Part shown: positions 5,641 to 18,128 of the stretch, in pieces
Position numbering within the stretch: the first letter of the stretch is position 1
Layout of the letters: each line of letters starts with the position of its first letter
From: Tubulinosema ratisbonensis
Lineage: Eukaryota; Microsporidia; Tubulinosematidae
Assembly (NCBI GenBank): GCA_004000155.1
Contig: RCSS01000086.1
Location: 1 to 23,753 of the forward strand
DNA: 23,753 nucleotides
Direction: 5' to 3'
Program-made: the position numbers and the translations under genes
The notes under the pieces: model-generated
The model's database searches: none
What the model was told of the DNA's origin: nothing
What the model saw: only the letters and a program-made list of their open reading frames with translations

Positions 5641-6495
5641 TCATATAAACTCAACGGGTAAGAAATTAAAAACAATATCATCACAAAAAAATATAAAAAA
5701 AATAGCACAAAAGAAATACTCACCGGTGCTTATATGGTTTGTTCCATAATAAAACATCAAAACCAAACTTAAAAAATCGATAAATAAAATTAAATAACAA
5801 TTGAAAAGATACAACATTGATTTGCAAGGAAATGATTGTAAATACACAAAGAAAAGTATCATCAATGCTAAAAAACTAAAAAACAAAAAATGAATTTCAA
5901 GTAAATACATCTTTTTTCTTTTTATAGTACATAAAATATAAAGTATTAATTTGAACAAAATGATCAAATTTAGAATTAATAACAGAAAATAATAAATGTG
6001 ATTTATATGTAAATTTGAAACATATGAATAAATGTATAATTTTTTTGAAATTAAAAAACTATGAGTTAATGTGATGAAATAGCTTATTACTTGAATTATA
6101 TAGCGCTGTTTAGGTAGATACATTTCAAAGATGAGTAAAAAGGAATATAAAAAAATACTAATTGTTATTTCGAATATGGGATTCTTTGTATATAAAGCTA
6201 GAAGTGTTGAGAACATAAAATTTATTATTTTTACAAATAATATTGTAAATTTAACTGAATTGCTTGTAAGAAAAAATCTTATTATTAATTTAGAGTCTCT
6301 TAAAATCTCTTGTTGGGTGTTGTTTGTGTTGATAGAATTATTTATATCTCTTATAATAGAAAATATAAAAAAATCAGTGTTTTCTGCTACGATAACTTCC
6401 TCTTCTAAAAGTTGTTCAACGTCATTGTCTTCATTCTCTTCAAACTGTAAAGATAAATTCGGAATCATTGCATTTATTTTGTCTCTTGGTGGCAT
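5641..6495 (-). CDS. Orphan seven-segment membrane protein with acidic N-terminus
   Basis: 284 residues from the ATG at 6495 (MPPRDKINAM) to a TGA at 5641-5643. The frame stays open upstream only to a TTG, which I do not accept as a start. Residues 17-40 are acidic (EENEDND, LLEEEV), and residues 1-80 contain no strong membrane segment. Seven hydrophobic segments follow at about 84-102, 106-126, 132-150, 167-190, 197-219, 227-250 and 259-278, with a basic loop (IKRKKM, 191-196) between the fourth and fifth. No family motif is recognised. The topology suggests a cytosolic acidic head and an integral membrane body. It resembles the protein at 1220-2083 in size and segment number but not clearly in sequence. 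It has no C-run start motif. Confidence 0.8.
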   Translation of the reverse strand: MPPRDKINAMIPNLSLQFEENEDNDVEQLLEEEVIVAENTDFFIFSIIRDINNSINTNNTQQEILRDSKLIIRFFLTSNSVKFTILFVKIINFMFSTLLALYTKNPIFEITISIFLYSFLLIFEMYLPKQRYIIQVISYFITLTHSFLISKKLYIYSYVSNLHINHIYYFLLLILNLIILFKLILYILCTIKRKKMYLLEIHFLFFSFLALMILFFVYLQSFPCKSMLYLFNCYLILFIDFLSLVLMFYYGTNHISTGEYFFCAIFFIFFCDDIVFNFLPVEFI

Positions 6496-6853
6496 TTGTA
6501 AGTTTAAAAAGAACAAAATTTTTTTAAATTGCTTTTTTGATTAATTTATTCCAAATTGGTATTCCAAATTTCCAGCCATCCGATTATTTTAACATGTTAT
6601 AATTTATTTAAAGTACATCACAATTAAAAAATACTTAAATTAATGATCAAAATTGTGTCAGTAAATAATAATTAAGGTAAACTTACCTGTCAACAATGAT
6701 GTTAATTTCATTTAATATTCTCGACCTGAAGAACATATAAAGGATAAATAATGCTTGAAAATAAATAAAATGGTTCCTAAAAATGTTTATAGTTCAAATA
6801 TTTTTAAAGATAATCATGGTAACAAGAATATTTCTATTATAATTGTAAGTTCC
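6496..6853. other. Spacer, nothing recognised
   Basis: AT-rich spacer upstream of the membrane-protein gene. It presumably holds that gene's promoter, but no distinct element can be picked out. The plus-strand open stretch that runs into it from 6131 is the antisense shadow of the gene. Confidence 0.45.
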
Positions 6854-8202: not shown

Positions 8203-9180
8203 CTAAATAATTCTATCAACCTCATCATCAACCTTCCAAACATTAACCACACTATCAGCTGACCCTGTCAAATAAAAATCTTCATTCTCATTAATAGCAA
8301 AATGAATTATTCTATTTTTATGGCCACGGTTCACTCCCTTAACACATAAATTATTGCTTAACACTCTGCTATCATTAAGTGAATACCCATGGGTGCTGAT
8401 TATCTTATTTTTATTGGTCCAATATAAATTGCATACCTGTGAGTTTGTGTCTATTGATTTTATCAGTCTTGGTTTGTTTAACAGATACCANTGTTTTACA
8501 CTTTTATCAGCTGTGCCACCACCAGTGAGAAGTAAGTATGGGTCTGTTTTGGAGAAACAAAGTGCTTTGATGGCTGCTTTATGATTCTTTATGCTATAAA
8601 TTGATTCTGTGATCATACGACTGTCATACACAAATACGTTGTTGTCATTGCCACCTGAGGCAAGCATAGTGTTTGTACAATTTAATTTTAAACCACATAC
8701 CTCTTGTAAATGATTTTGTATGTTTATTTTTGTGATACCAATACGTTCATCTACCATTTTTATTGATTTGTCTCTACTCCCAGTATAGAAACATCCTTTC
8801 TCCCATTGAATAACACCCACTCTACTTCTATGTACCTTATAAGTCTTATTTTTTAAACTTAATAAGTCTAATACTTCTACCCTTCCTAAAGTACATCCTA
8901 TTCCTAATTTAGTACCATCATTGTTGTAATAAACTGATGTGATTGATTTGTTAGAGTATTCATAAATTAATTCATGTTTACTGGTATGAAAATTAAAGAC
9001 ATACACTTTGTTACAAATACCATAAGCTATGTTCTCTTTAGACCAACTAATTAGGTTTGTATAAAAATCATCAGCTAAGTTATGTATTTTATGAGTACGG
9101 AATGGCTCAGTGCATAAGTATTCTTTTTTATTGTTTAGGTAAGAATGTTTTACTTCTGTGTCTAATATAAATCTATCCAT
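8203..9180 (-). CDS. Cdc20/Cdh1 (Fizzy)-family activator of the anaphase-promoting complex
   Basis: 325 residues. Proteins of this family bind the APC/C ubiquitin ligase and present cyclins and securin to it during mitosis. The start is the ATG at 9180, preceded by CCACCCTT; the frame runs on upstream only to a TTG. Residues 2-8 (DRFILDT) are a weakened C-box. DDFYTNLISW (37-46) is the family block opening the WD40 propeller. Later family signatures are MLASGGNDN (172-180), HKAAIKAL (200-207), LLTGGGTADKSVK (217-229), DTNSQVCNLYW (244-254) and ISTHGYSLN (261-269), then GSADSVVNVW (306-315). An N at 8491 makes residue 230 His or Gln. The C-terminus is DRII where the family normally ends in Ile-Arg. 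The N-terminal arm is very short, with no visible Mad2-binding, KEN or D-box motif. Family is certain; Cdc20 versus Cdh1 cannot be decided. Confidence 0.95.
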   Translation of the reverse strand: MDRFILDTEVKHSYLNNKKEYLCTEPFRTHKIHNLADDFYTNLISWSKENIAYGICNKVYVFNFHTSKHELIYEYSNKSITSVYYNNDGTKLGIGCTLGRVEVLDLLSLKNKTYKVHRSRVGVIQWEKGCFYTGSRDKSIKMVDERIGITKINIQNHLQEVCGLKLNCTNTMLASGGNDNNVFVYDSRMITESIYSIKNHKAAIKALCFSKTDPYLLLTGGGTADKSVKXWYLLNKPRLIKSIDTNSQVCNLYWTNKNKIISTHGYSLNDSRVLSNNLCVKGVNRGHKNRIIHFAINENEDFYLTGSADSVVNVWKVDDEVDRII

Positions 9181-9182
9181 AA

Positions 9183-9185
9183 GGG
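9183..9185 (-). promoter_or_regulatory. CCC start-associated motif of the Cdc20-family gene
   Basis: The minus strand reads ACCACCCTT directly before the ATG at 9180. This matches the microsporidian C-run start signal and decides the start codon. Confidence 0.65.
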
Positions 9186-9189
9186 TGGT

Positions 9190-10350
9190 ATTTACTGTGT
9201 TTATGACAGTATTTTTAATTTGTGTATTATTTGTTTGTGTGTCATAAGTCAATTTTAAACAATAAAATATTTAATATTTTTAACATTAATTAAAAATTAT
9301 TTTTAATAATTTTGTTTAATATTATAATTGTTATTTTATTTATTATTATCTTATTATTTTATTTATTTTATTTATCATTAAATTTATTTTATTTTTAATT
9401 CTTTTGTTTATTATTTAATTTTATTTAANGAGACATCAAAGATGTTATATGATAATTTATTTATTTGATAAGTCAAAAGTATTTTTTAAAATCTTAGCTG
9501 CATTATGATCAATGCTAGACGATCACTTTAATGGTTTTAAATAATAATTTTTTATGTAATTATAGTTTGTCTGTCCAGCTATTGGATACTTTTTTTCAAT
9601 TTTTTAACATATTATAGCTGATATTTTGACAATTTTTATTAAATTTCAAAAATTATAAAAACATTCTTTAGGCAGTTAAAAGGGAAATTGTTACCAATTT
9701 AAACTTTGTTTTCTTTTCTCTTTTATATCTATTAACAAATAAATCATTTAGTGCTAGCTTTATACAAAAAAAAATTTTTGATTTTGTAAAAGAATTGATA
9801 AAAAATGTCTTGTTTATTTGAATAACTTATCAAAAATTTAAATTTTTACTCCAAACCCCTTTTTTATTTTCTTTTTTGCTATTTCTAGAAAATTCTTCTT
9901 TAAAATAAATATGAAAACTAAAAAAAATAGAACAAAAAATCATAAAATTTTAAAATACACCCAATAAAAGATAAAAATAAAAAAATCAGAGTTTTCAGGA
10001 TGATGTAAATTAATATAAAATTAATTTTGCTAAATTGATTTATATTATTTTAAATTTCTTTTTATGTCAAAAAGTGAAAAAAAAAGTTACTTATATGTAC
10101 GAGTACCTATTGTATCAGCTAATCATATTTATCTTTTATTTTGTTGTACGCTTTATTTGAAAAAAAGCTTTTTAGCTTATTAAATATATGCAGTTTTTTG
10201 TGTTTTTTCTAAATAGAGTCGTATTCATCAAAAATATATTAAAGTAAATTTTTGCTTGAAAGCGATTAAAAATTTGAAATATTCAATAATTCTAATTTAG
10301 TAAATTTACTCAATTTACAACTTATACGTATATTTAGATTTAGAAATAAA
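9190..10350. other. AT-rich spacer between divergent genes
   Basis: About 1.2 kb between the Cdc20-family gene (-) and the membrane-anchored protein gene (+), so both promoters should lie here. One N occurs at 9429. The first 250 bases are almost pure A/T. No coding relic, RNA gene or clear repeat was found. Confidence 0.5.
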
Positions 10351-10356
10351 AAATTG

Positions 10357-10359
10357 CCC
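10357..10359 (+). promoter_or_regulatory. CCC motif touching the start codon
   Basis: The sequence reads TTGCCCATG, with the C-run immediately before the ATG at 10360, as in other microsporidian genes. It fixes the start. Confidence 0.65.
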
Positions 10360-11934
10360 ATGTACATAAAAAAGAAATGGATTTTAGTATTTTCATTCAT
10401 TTTTGTAGGATTTCTAGTTTACTTTGGAAAAAATATGATAACCTCTGAAGGAAAAGAACCAAAGGAACCAGAAAAGAAAACTGACTACGAAGACTCAAAA
10501 AAAGAAGAAGAATTAGACAAATTACTAAATAAAAACAAGCCTTTGATTGAAGAAGAGGAAATCGCAGAAGTAACGGAGAGACTAGATATTACTGACATGT
10601 TTAAAAGAAATGGAAAAGATTGTAAAAATGAATTAAAAACAAATGAATTACAGAATCAAGTTATTGATAGTGTTGAAACGGAAGAAACTTTGACTAAAAC
10701 GGATGATTTTTTTAAAGAAAAAAGTTCCTGTATTGAATATTTGATGAATTTTAAAAATAATAGCTTAAACACACCGACATTTGAAGGTGCTGCAGATTTT
10801 AAAAAATTAAATGAGCATGAAAAGATTTTAATTAAAGAATCACAAATAAAAAAATCAATTAAAGAAGAAACTAAGTCTTTAAAGGAAGAAAGCGATCATG
10901 AAGACGAATTATACTTATCAGAAAATGAAGCAATGCTTTTTTCGGTATTTTATTTATTCAAAGAATACGAAAAAGAATTAAATTCATCTTTAATGAAAAA
11001 AGATGAAAATATTTTAAATATTTTAAGCTTTTTAAAAGGTAATAGGAAAAATATCAAAAAAACATATCAAGAATTTGTGACACTTGTTGAAATCTTTGAT
11101 GAAATATATCGAAAACACGATAAAAGAAACAAAGTGGCGTGTTTTGCACAATTTATAATAAACTATCTCGTAAATAAAGATTCTTTGGCATTAAATGGTA
11201 TCAAAGAACATGGTTCAGATACAAATAGAAAAATTAGCAGTTTTGCAAAAAGATTTTGTATACCAATTAAACACAACGAAACATTTTATTTGGAAAGGTA
11301 TCTTGAAATAAATCGTGGAGATGGTATTACAATAGACAGTGATTTTGAATCTATTACGATAGATTTTAAGAAATATTTTGATGAACAAGATTGTACTTTT
11401 CTTCCACTTGAATCTTCAGTTTGTTCATCATGTGATCCTATATCTTGGCTCTGTTTATCAGAAGAATTCATTGATATCACTTTTGTTTTGTTTGATCGCT
11501 TTTCAGAATCACTTGAATTTTCATCAATAGTGTCGGGTGATTTTTGTTCATTTTTTTCAACTATACTTGTTTGCTTTTTTTCGCCTAAATTATTTGTTTG
11601 TGGGATATTATTTTCGTTCTTTTCTTCGTTCTTTGAATTTTTTTTTATGTTGAACAAAAAAGATATATTTGAAAAGGCATTTAACATCCTGGTTAACCAT
11701 GTATTTGAATTATTGTTGGTATTGTTTTCACCAGTTTTTACTTTTGAACTTGTATTTTTATTCAAAACATCTTCAAAATCGTTCTTTGGTCTTTTAACTA
11801 AGATGTCACCACATGGCTCATCACAGCAATTTCTTTTTCTCGCACATAATAATATAATTAAAAGTATAGTGATGTTGTATAATTTCATTATAGGGTTAAA
11901 TTTGTTTTTTATTTATGATAAGAAAGCTTTTTAA
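10360..11934 (+). CDS. Membrane-anchored Glu/Lys-rich protein; its 3' 40% is antisense to another gene
   Basis: The frame runs 524 residues from ATG 10360 to TAA 11934. Residues 1-6 are basic (MYIKKK) and 7-22 form one hydrophobic segment, so the protein has a signal anchor or uncleaved signal peptide. Residues 25-80 are Glu/Lys-rich (EEEIAEV near 66). Residues 185-345 look like an ordinary folded or helical domain (NEAMLFSVFYLFKEYEKEL; IYRKHDKRNKVACFAQFI). From about residue 350 the composition switches to Phe/Ser/Leu-rich text (FFSFFSSFFEFFF) that looks like the antisense of the gene at 11286-11888. The natural protein may once have ended near 11400, with loss of a stop extending it, but as it stands no stop precedes 11934. 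No homologue recognised. Confidence is high for the first 345 residues and low for the rest. Confidence 0.75.
   Translation: MYIKKKWILVFSFIFVGFLVYFGKNMITSEGKEPKEPEKKTDYEDSKKEEELDKLLNKNKPLIEEEEIAEVTERLDITDMFKRNGKDCKNELKTNELQNQVIDSVETEETLTKTDDFFKEKSSCIEYLMNFKNNSLNTPTFEGAADFKKLNEHEKILIKESQIKKSIKEETKSLKEESDHEDELYLSENEAMLFSVFYLFKEYEKELNSSLMKKDENILNILSFLKGNRKNIKKTYQEFVTLVEIFDEIYRKHDKRNKVACFAQFIINYLVNKDSLALNGIKEHGSDTNRKISSFAKRFCIPIKHNETFYLERYLEINRGDGITIDSDFESITIDFKKYFDEQDCTFLPLESSVCSSCDPISWLCLSEEFIDITFVLFDRFSESLEFSSIVSGDFCSFFSTILVCFFSPKLFVCGILFSFFSSFFEFFFMLNKKDIFEKAFNILVNHVFELLLVLFSPVFTFELVFLFKTSSKSFFGLLTKMSPHGSSQQFLFLAHNNIIKSIVMLYNFIIGLNLFFIYDKKAF
11285..11290 (-). terminator. AATAAA overlapping the stop codon of the nested gene
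   Basis: On the minus strand the TAA stop (11286-11288) lies inside AATAAA. Stop codons overlapped by the polyadenylation signal are known from compact microsporidian genes. This supports 11286-11888 being a real transcription unit. Confidence 0.5.
11286..11888 (-). CDS. Secreted Asn/Ser/Lys-rich protein, nested antisense gene
   Basis: 200 residues from ATG 11888 to TAA 11286, lying wholly inside the plus-strand frame 10360-11934. The start is preceded by AACCCTATA, a C-run start motif, and the stop is overlapped by AATAAA. Residues 1-16 (MKLYNITILLIILLCA) are a good signal peptide. A basic RKR and four cysteines (C15, C21, C22, C26) follow. Residues 45-160 are hydrophilic, rich in Asn, Ser, Lys and Glu, and probably disordered. 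The last 35 residues (from about SCSSKYFL) differ in character and may be overprinted from the plus-strand gene. It has no known domain; a secreted or exported parasite protein is the reasonable guess. Third codon positions of the two frames coincide on opposite strands. Confidence 0.7.
   Translation of the reverse strand: MKLYNITILLIILLCARKRNCCDEPCGDILVKRPKNDFEDVLNKNTSSKVKTGENNTNNNSNTWLTRMLNAFSNISFLFNIKKNSKNEEKNENNIPQTNNLGEKKQTSIVEKNEQKSPDTIDENSSDSEKRSNKTKVISMNSSDKQSQDIGSHDEQTEDSSGRKVQSCSSKYFLKSIVIDSKSLSIVIPSPRFISRYLSK
11893..11895 (-). promoter_or_regulatory. CCC start-associated motif of the nested gene
   Basis: The minus strand reads AACCCTATA before the ATG at 11888, with four bases between the C-run and the start codon. 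Confidence 0.6.
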
Positions 11935-16189: not shown

Positions 16190-18128
16190 TTATTATGTTG
16201 GTTATACAACAGTTTATCGGTGATATTTTAGTAATTGGTAGAACTAAGTCTAAACATGAAACAAATCTAAAACATGTGTTATATCGATTGAACAGTCTAA
16301 AGAAACCCCGCGAAAAAAGAAAAAACGTGTAAAAATTTCTATAGTCTAGCAAACACTGCCTGATTTAACTCCTACTGTAAGTGTTTTTTATTTATTTTTA
16401 AAGGAATATAAATATAAAAAGAAGGGAGCTTATTAAACATTATCATTTAAGAAACAATTTAAATAAAGCAAATAAGAAAACATTTGTATCTATTTATTTA
16501 AATCATTGGGTGTTTGGGTTATATCCCGTAGGATATAACAATAATATACGAACTTTAGAATTTTAACTAGAGCTTTTAAAAATTTCCCAACTATAGCAAG
16601 AAGCCAAGGTATTTTAAAATATAAAGAACCAAAATCAAAGAAAGATTTACAAAAATTTATTGGCATGAAAAATTATGATATTAATTTTGTTAGAAATATT
16701 ACTGATCGTTTTATAATGTTGTATAAATTACTTGAAAAATAAAGTAAATGAATATAGGGCAATATTCATAGTTTAGAATTTCACAAGCTTAAAGACATCT
16801 GAAAGCAAAATTAGAGTTAGTAACTTTAGAATTAAATGGAAACCTTGTATTCTAAACTGATACTTCTAATACATGGATTGAAGTGTGCTTGTTACAGAAT
16901 AATTAACCTGTTGGATATTTTTCTACAACTCAAAATAAAGCAGAGCAAAATTATGGTATATTCTAACGAAAGGTTTAGCTGCTTTATGGCGAAGGAAAAA
17001 GAAGGTTACTATTTAATAGGCAAAAGGTTTGTTTTAAGAACTGATCACAAAGCAATAGAATATATCAACATAAAATTAGAATTCAAATCTGCGAAAAATA
17101 AGAGATGGATTTGAGGATTAATAGATTTAGTTTTGAAGTTTAGTTTATTGAAGATGATAAACTCATCAAAGCCGACATTTAAAGTAGGACGACAAAAAAT
17201 TGGTCAAAATCAAAGAAAAAAATGTAAAATCATTGAAATTTATAAAAATTTTAATTATAAAAAATATCTTCAACCAACTAAAAAAGGAAGAGATTAGAGA
17301 TATTGAAAAATTGAGAAAATTTTCAAAACTTTGTAAAATTTGTCAAAAGAAAGACTAGAATATGAATAAGATTGGAAGCTTCGTAAATGTATTGAAGCAT
17401 AGGGAGGTTATGGTATAGACATTTTAGAACTTAAAAAAGACAAGTTGATTATTTTAGCTATAGACTAATATAGTCAAAAAATATTTGAGATAATTTTTAA
17501 AAGTAAAGAAGCTACTCAAATATAAGAATTTATTGAAAAACCATATGAAAATTTTCTTTTAAATCCTTTAAACAGAGACCGAAAGGTACTTGTAAAATAA
17601 TATTTAAAATTTTACAAACAAAAAGGCTATTACACATAGATTTACTATTCTTAACTACAACAAACTCAAAGGAAGGATAGAATGATTAAATAGAACTATA
17701 AGAGAATCAATTAAAAAAACAAAAAGATCTATATAGAAAAATATTTCTAAAATAATTTACAACTACAATAACTTAGTGAATAGAAGCATAGGAATAACGC
17801 TGGTAGAAGTGTTGTTAGGAGTAAATCAGCAAAATGAGCCAAACAAAAGTAAAAGATATAGCAATAGAATTTAAAATAAAAAGAAGAAAAGAGGAATTTT
17901 TTACGATAGGACAAAAGGTTCTATTAAAAAACAAGAATAAAGACAACAGGACGGAGAACAACTTCAAAGAATTAGGCGTGATAAAGAAAAAAAATTAGTG
18001 ACAACAGATATGAAGTCAAAATTGATAAAAAAAAGATTTTAAGAAGTCACACAAGGCAACTAAGAGCCTTTGAAGAGGGTGATGTTGTGTGTCCTAAAAG
18101 GATTGTACGCATTAAAGAAGACAATTAA
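16190..18128 (+). mobile_element. Ty3/gypsy retrotransposon pol pseudogene, 5' truncated
   Basis: Decayed pol pieces occur in normal order on the plus strand. The reverse transcriptase starts at the catalytic box, where FIGDILVIGRTK (16213-16248) stands for the usual Y-x-D-D-I-L. The late RT/connection block is KSKKDLQKFIGMKNYDINFV (from about 16633). RNase H follows (TDTSNTW; PVGYFS; LRTDHKAIEYI, 16800-17070). The integrase zinc finger is represented by CKIC (near 17330), the integrase core by GYGIDILELKKDKLIILAID (near 17410), and its C-terminal half by GRIE*LNRTIRESIKK (near 17670-17720). The GPY/SH3-like end is GQKVLLKNKN and DNRYEVKID, then RSHTRQLRAFEEGDVV (17910-18090). Many stops and frame changes occur. 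Gag, protease and most of RT are missing. The 92-codon frame at 16836-17114 is part of this relic. No paired LTRs were identified. Confidence 0.88.
16376..16540. mobile_element. Possible solo LTR inserted in the Ty3 RT relic
   Basis: Between the FIGD block and the late RT block the RT text is interrupted by about 165 bases that begin TG and end CA. At the right end 16518-16526 and 16531-16539 form a perfect 9-bp inverted repeat (GTTATATCC/GGATATAAC). On the minus strand this gives a 5' end TGTTATATCC followed by GGATATAAC, a layout common at LTR ends. No target-site duplication was found, so boundaries and identity are tentative. Confidence 0.35.

Follow-up and report, generated by a model that had tools for sequence, protein, structure and literature searches.

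New protein C-termini have been described in Saccharomyces and Drosophila, where stop loss or a frameshift lets an old gene read into DNA that is non-coding in that frame; in PMC4494051 the additions are derived from noncoding DNA and are short, the largest in yeasts comprising 86 new residues. Antisense ORFs form a second class of relevance. One antisense register, termed 'frame 1', is favoured in that the sense ORF itself excludes 64 of 192 dicodons, and the cases treated in PMC11266595 are ORFs on antisense transcripts. By derivation 'frame 1' is the same wobble-on-wobble register as that found at the locus considered here, in the microsporidian Tubulinosema ratisbonensis, the difference being that here the antisense frame continues a real upstream gene. 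The locus lies in a window of 23,753 nucleotides (the whole stretch of DNA analysed), which is contig 34 of an assembly of 4.1 Mb in 236 contigs. Among PDB chains the uL6 protein of this genome best matches 6zu5 (263 bits), then 7qca, 7qep and 6rm3 (195, 177 and 150 bits), all of which we take to be microsporidian ribosomes; models for the microsporidian SSU rRNA, the TLC transporter and PTP2 each gave no match in the parts of the assembly searched, and those for PTP2 and TLC gave none in the control genomes either.

Two frames are nested at this locus. The plus ORF (10360-11934, +) has 524 codons counted from its ATG and completely encloses the minus ORF (11286-11888, -) of 200 codons. The coordinates were re-derived and agree with those of an earlier sequence-only reading, which was also right that wobble position faces wobble position, the third positions of both frames being those where the coordinate modulo 3 is 0. 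This is the most permissive antisense register. A stop in one frame needs a TAN codon after a codon ending in T or C, or a CAN codon after a codon ending in T, on the opposite strand. The rule given earlier, that stops appear only opposite Tyr, His or Gln codons preceded by T or C, is right for Tyr and needs refining for His and Gln, where the preceding base must be T and not C. The account that we favour, with some reserve, is that two convergent genes were joined tail-to-tail at about 11410 by a truncating rearrangement that removed both stops.

Both frames begin in a convincing manner. A CCC motif stands immediately 5' of the plus ATG (10357-10359, +), and 5' of the minus ATG are found CCC (11893-11895) and AAATTT (11898-11903), together spanning 11893-11903 on the minus strand and corresponding to the signal pair described for microsporidia in PMC2803860; the CCC at each ATG had been noticed before. 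CCC near an ATG is an informative start signal: 14 of the 39 long ORFs carry it at most 12 nt from their first ATG, as against 140 of 5,894 background ATGs. Given this enrichment and the microsporidian signal pair, both ATGs are probably real gene starts. The AATAAA reported earlier on the minus stop was confirmed, the TAA lying within it, and was set aside as weak evidence, since AATAAA is near 25 of the 39 long ORFs and also near 28% of 31,532 background stop triplets.

The minus gene proper comprises about 158 codons (11413-11888, -), its product having a hydrophobic N-terminus, a Cys-rich start and a body rich in Ser, Asn, Asp, Glu and Lys; the protein is apparently secreted. The signal peptide proposed previously stands as far as the hydrophobic N-terminus goes, by eye, but no 19-residue window reaches a Kyte-Doolittle value of 1.6. 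A protein database search with the minus frame gave nothing among 165 candidates. The plus gene proper has 351 codons (10360-11412, +), delimited by codon likelihood, hydropathy and a paralog match, and is laid out as a membrane anchor (residues 9-27, by hydropathy), a linker rich in Lys and Glu and then a conserved domain that lacks its end.

The position at which coding passes from one strand to the other was determined with a codon model whose training set was 39 ORFs of at least 200 codons without ambiguous bases (13,555 codons), taken from 20 stretches of 10 kb (one left out and three used in part) and from the window minus this locus. Inside the overlap there is a single switch of coding strand, as would be expected of a fusion, with its best position in the minus ORF at 11410, a value obtained without use of the paralog. 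Switch points within 2 nats of the best lie at 11383-11422, which is taken as the junction interval, and when the training genes were bootstrapped 500 times 98.6% of the switch points fell in 11380-11425; the change near 11400 seen in the sequence-only reading is thereby borne out. To the right of 11410 the lead is with the minus frame, by 17.4 nats, and to its left, as far as the minus ORF extends, with the plus frame, by 6.6 nats. Between 10360 and 11409 each of the ten 105-base blocks favours the plus frame under a codon likelihood in which minus-frame stops are penalised. A true sense frame trails by 17.4 nats in 0.27% of 749 overlapping 159-codon windows, from 1 of the 39 genes, when each gene is left out in turn. 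Coding-type codon usage in both frames of the overlap was not found, the one contrary block being 11650-11770, where the plus frame leads by 5.0 nats; a true sense frame trails by at least 5 nats in 2.2% of 322 forty-codon windows. The locus had been put forward as a fully nested antisense gene pair, and of this the two genes with their start signals stand, but not two functional overlapping genes, as the plus tail looks antisense-like and loses by those 17.4 nats.

The junction is bracketed by an inverted repeat, perfect over 10 bp and with a loop of 32 nt, the left arm at 11379-11388 (+) and the right arm at 11421-11430 (-). Inverted repeats this close span 2.6% of positions in the window, 0.3% of 2,000 mononucleotide shuffles and none of the 5,028 coding positions tested, and the repeat may be a trace of the joining event or may be due to chance. 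By eye, both arms of this repeat (11379-11430) give Asp-Glu-Gln in the two frames.

A second and independent line of evidence comes from a paralog. The plus gene domain at 10894-11412 (+; residues 179-351) is shared by BLASTP with a frame elsewhere in the genome (G000:C179:24877-25779:-), 45 of 180 positions being identical (43.5 bits) with the alignment ending at 11412. A genome-wide search with the plus part gave this one relative (G000:C179:25213-25692, minus strand; E 2.8e-7; residues 181-340), and the reciprocal search returned window 10900-11406 with E 4.9e-7, so that similarity ends between 11406 and 11412. The open frame of the paralog has 301 residues and reaches the end of its contig; at the N-terminus a hydrophobic segment precedes the shared domain, and past the end of similarity the frame extends for about 100 residues, a part that is missing from the window. 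Thus homology breaks off at the switch point where the relative goes on, as judged from one paralog, and since the codon switch and the paralog break are independent of each other the same break point is reached by two lines. The C-terminal 112 residues of the paralog, when sought genome-wide, had their only copy in the paralog itself; absence of the missing part elsewhere in the genome is predicted by a deletion, and would also follow from divergence. With one paralog and no ortholog, gain in the paralog is conceivable beside loss in the plus gene; we infer loss, and with it the rearrangement. No family was returned by Pfam at E<=10 for the plus part, the plus tail or the paralog, nor a match for either full frame. 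Searches of a protein database found only the window's own protein, both with the full plus frame (7,996 candidates sharing most words scored) and with the alignment of plus domain and paralog (6,874 candidates), and a pattern search of genome contigs gave 69 matches, none of them a relative.

The same break could conceivably have been made by an assembly join, in which the ends of unlinked genes were wrongly put together at about 11410. The assembly is a draft in its 236 contigs, and one published putative gene fusion proved to be a product of assembly errors, according to PMC4494051. But no ambiguous base or N run is present at the junction, the genome yielded no further near-identical copy of the locus, and we infer that a typical misjoin would need a longer repeat than the 10-bp inverted one; the lack of an N run and of a second copy makes this explanation the less likely, and it is regarded as very improbable.

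More weight attaches to the idea that the convergent genes abutted or overlapped slightly and lost their stops by point mutation or a small indel, whether natural or a sequencing error, with no deletion involved. In yeast both stop loss and frameshift create new C-termini (PMC4494051), ambiguous bases are scattered through the assembly, 6 of them in the window, and stops in other frames lie close to the switch on both strands, which is why stop loss or an indel without deletion keeps some standing. Such stops are common opposite the minus gene (17 and 6 in the other two plus frames), and so their nearness to the switch says little; none of the ambiguous bases falls within 10360-11934, and two separate changes, or one well-placed change, would be required. 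It also leaves the similarity ending where the paralog goes on, and this is the reason that a rearrangement fits better. Further, 6 sampled convergent pairs (ORFs of at least 150 codons, gaps containing N dropped) are separated by 152-3,669 bp, and with such pairs at least 152 bp apart, touching genes that lack stops would be odd without a rearrangement. Loss of the stops without deletion is rated rather unlikely, if a contender to be taken seriously; of the earlier proposal that the 3' ends were extended into each other by stop loss, the mutual run-on stands and its cause is better given as a rearrangement.

With the switch at 11410 and the paralog break there, both tails are antisense run-outs: on the plus strand the last 173 codons with their stop (11413-11934, +), which lie opposite the minus gene, and on the minus strand the final 42 codons (11286-11412, -), which end in TAA opposite the conserved plus domain. 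The plus tail is 20% Phe and 14.5% Ser, is rich in Phe, Ser and Leu and has three hydrophobic stretches, and this is the expected back side of a gene rich in Lys, Asn, Glu and Asp. No similarity to it was found in the protein database, as part of the whole frame, or in Pfam, when searched alone. A structure model of the whole plus frame from the single sequence has a mean pLDDT of 39.8 and so is silent on the tail either way. A spliced plus gene was considered and set aside by eye, as an intron of about 400 nt would be required; microsporidian introns are rare and short.

Quite how exceptional it is for these tails to be open was estimated by shuffling codon order or by resampling synonyms according to genome usage, with 5,000 draws each. 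For the stretch opposite the minus gene's 158 codons, shuffled order gives an expectation of 2.76 plus stops, with none in 3.0% of draws (P 0.030), and resampled synonyms an expectation of 1.70, with none in 9.6% (P 0.096). The 42-codon minus tail is open with P 0.948 when synonyms of the plus codons are resampled and with P 0.028 by order. Openness is thus compatible with chance, and the earlier view that 200 codons open on two strands are unexpected holds weakly, to the extent that an open plus tail is mildly unusual (P 0.03 by codon order, 0.10 with synonyms resampled). It had also been suggested that avoidance of Tyr, His and Gln keeps the frames open; as they are open in 10% and 95% of synonymous draws, no stop avoidance need be invoked, and selection for keeping both frames open is not visible as stop avoidance beyond chance. 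In the other 39 long ORFs no antisense run in any frame reaches 173 codons, the longest having 148, and runs of at least 100 codons occur in 7 of the 39 in the wobble-on-wobble register as against 1 and 0 in the other two. The locus is the long end of this distribution and was selected for its length. In the sampled DNA there are four further wholly nested antisense ORFs of at least 80 codons (84-123). The window itself has a second long antisense overlap, of a minus frame at 5641-6540 and a plus frame at 6131-6544 (137 codons), which is likewise wobble-on-wobble with an antisense run of 130 codons; by eye, the minus frame resembles a multi-spanning membrane protein.

These data bear directly on whether the pair is a case of true overprinting, with both tails translated and selected and a new gene part born antisense. 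Both frames are open over a long overlap, as overprinting would have it, both starts carry likely signals, an antisense run of equal length is found in 0 of the 39 other long ORFs, the plus-tail block 11650-11770 scores as coding, and overlapping transcription is reported to be common in two microsporidia (PMC2803860). To be set against this are stop avoidance at chance level (P 0.10 and 0.95 with synonyms resampled), the antisense-like composition of the tail and the lack of relatives in searches of the protein database and genome contigs. Gene birth by overprinting, as first suggested, thus has little in its favour, the tail being without similarity and having lost the codon contest by 17.4 nats, and we think it very improbable. 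A combined reading, in which one join gave rise to two new C-termini, each encoded on the strand opposite the other gene, with both chimeric products being synthesised and retained, is likewise given very little probability.

Under the tail-to-tail join, a single rearrangement, either a deletion or an inversion breakpoint, would have severed the plus gene within the conserved domain and taken away both stops. Each frame would then have run antisense through its neighbour to the first stop, for 173 codons on the plus strand and 42 on the minus strand. The plus run-out would have stayed open because the join set wobble against wobble and because the minus gene is poor in Tyr, His and Gln (8 codons in 158). 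A plus protein, if translated, would gain a hydrophobic random tail, whereas the minus protein, if it originally ended at the junction, would change by no more than the 42 or so added residues. Hydrophobic random tails of this kind commonly destabilise proteins, and for this reason a plus gene that is decaying or truncated is to be expected. The inverted repeat at the junction is counted in support of the join, as is a profile match that spans the cut; counted against it are the reliance on one paralog with no ortholog found, the block 11650-11770, the weakness of the ubiquitin C-terminal hydrolase (UCH) link and a stop in another plus frame at the switch.

That profile match bears on the identity of the plus gene. 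Plus domain and paralog were combined in a profile that was run against 942 sequences (3 UCH proteins, 39 genes and 900 shuffles), and the UCH protein L008 came first (E 0.0039, 12.4 bits, the next at 5.8), the match being at positions 145-214; the other two UCH proteins were the last two of the 924 listed. With single sequences as queries L008 ranked behind shuffles, second of 894 for the paralog and tenth of 887 for the plus part, and a profile-profile comparison (hhalign) with the three UCH proteins of the genome was negative (probability 0.2%). For membership of the UCH family (PF00443) there is no Pfam match, only the weak profile match to L008. A plus gene cut mid-way through a highly divergent UCH-type domain is accordingly treated as a lead and not as a classification. 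L008:1483-2433 (-) and L009:1435-2394 (-) encode short UCH-type proteins (PF00443), each with an N-terminal membrane anchor, and L009 is by eye without the usual Gly preceding the His of the His box. The plus gene resembles them in having an N-terminal anchor followed by a single domain, and in the first rank that the profile gives to L008, but differs in having no Pfam match and nothing beyond about residue 351. L008, L009, the plus gene and the paralog may form an anchored UCH-like group.

Elsewhere in the window, 8203-9252 (-) encodes a Cdc20/Cdh1-type activator of the APC/C (PF24807, E 4.7e-74) with one ambiguous base at 8491, and 16836-17114 (+) is probably what is left of a retroelement in decay, a fragment with an RNase H-like domain of reverse transcriptase (PF17917, E 5.9e-6). 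Beyond 12 kb, for the remainder of the window, one ORF of at least 100 codons is among those listed. Scans of the window with Rfam, at gathering scores, and for tRNAs gave no matches.

Overall, the locus illustrates how selection is not needed for long antisense ORFs to become nested, given a breakpoint in the wobble-on-wobble register with openness left to chance, and how fused convergent genes can take on the look of overprinting. Such loci are annotation traps and, if their product is made, natural starting material for new C-termini. Were the combined reading true, the locus would be a eukaryotic case in which antisense DNA gave birth to genes mutually and in one step. Among the matches listed from the open-licence PMC literature, no title concerned mutual antisense C-termini from fused convergent genes. 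As with the C-termini of Saccharomyces and Drosophila, an old gene reads here into DNA that is non-coding in that frame; unlike those cases, as described in PMC4494051, the run-out is of 173 codons, is antisense to a neighbouring gene, is mutual, and apparently came with loss of the original C-terminus.
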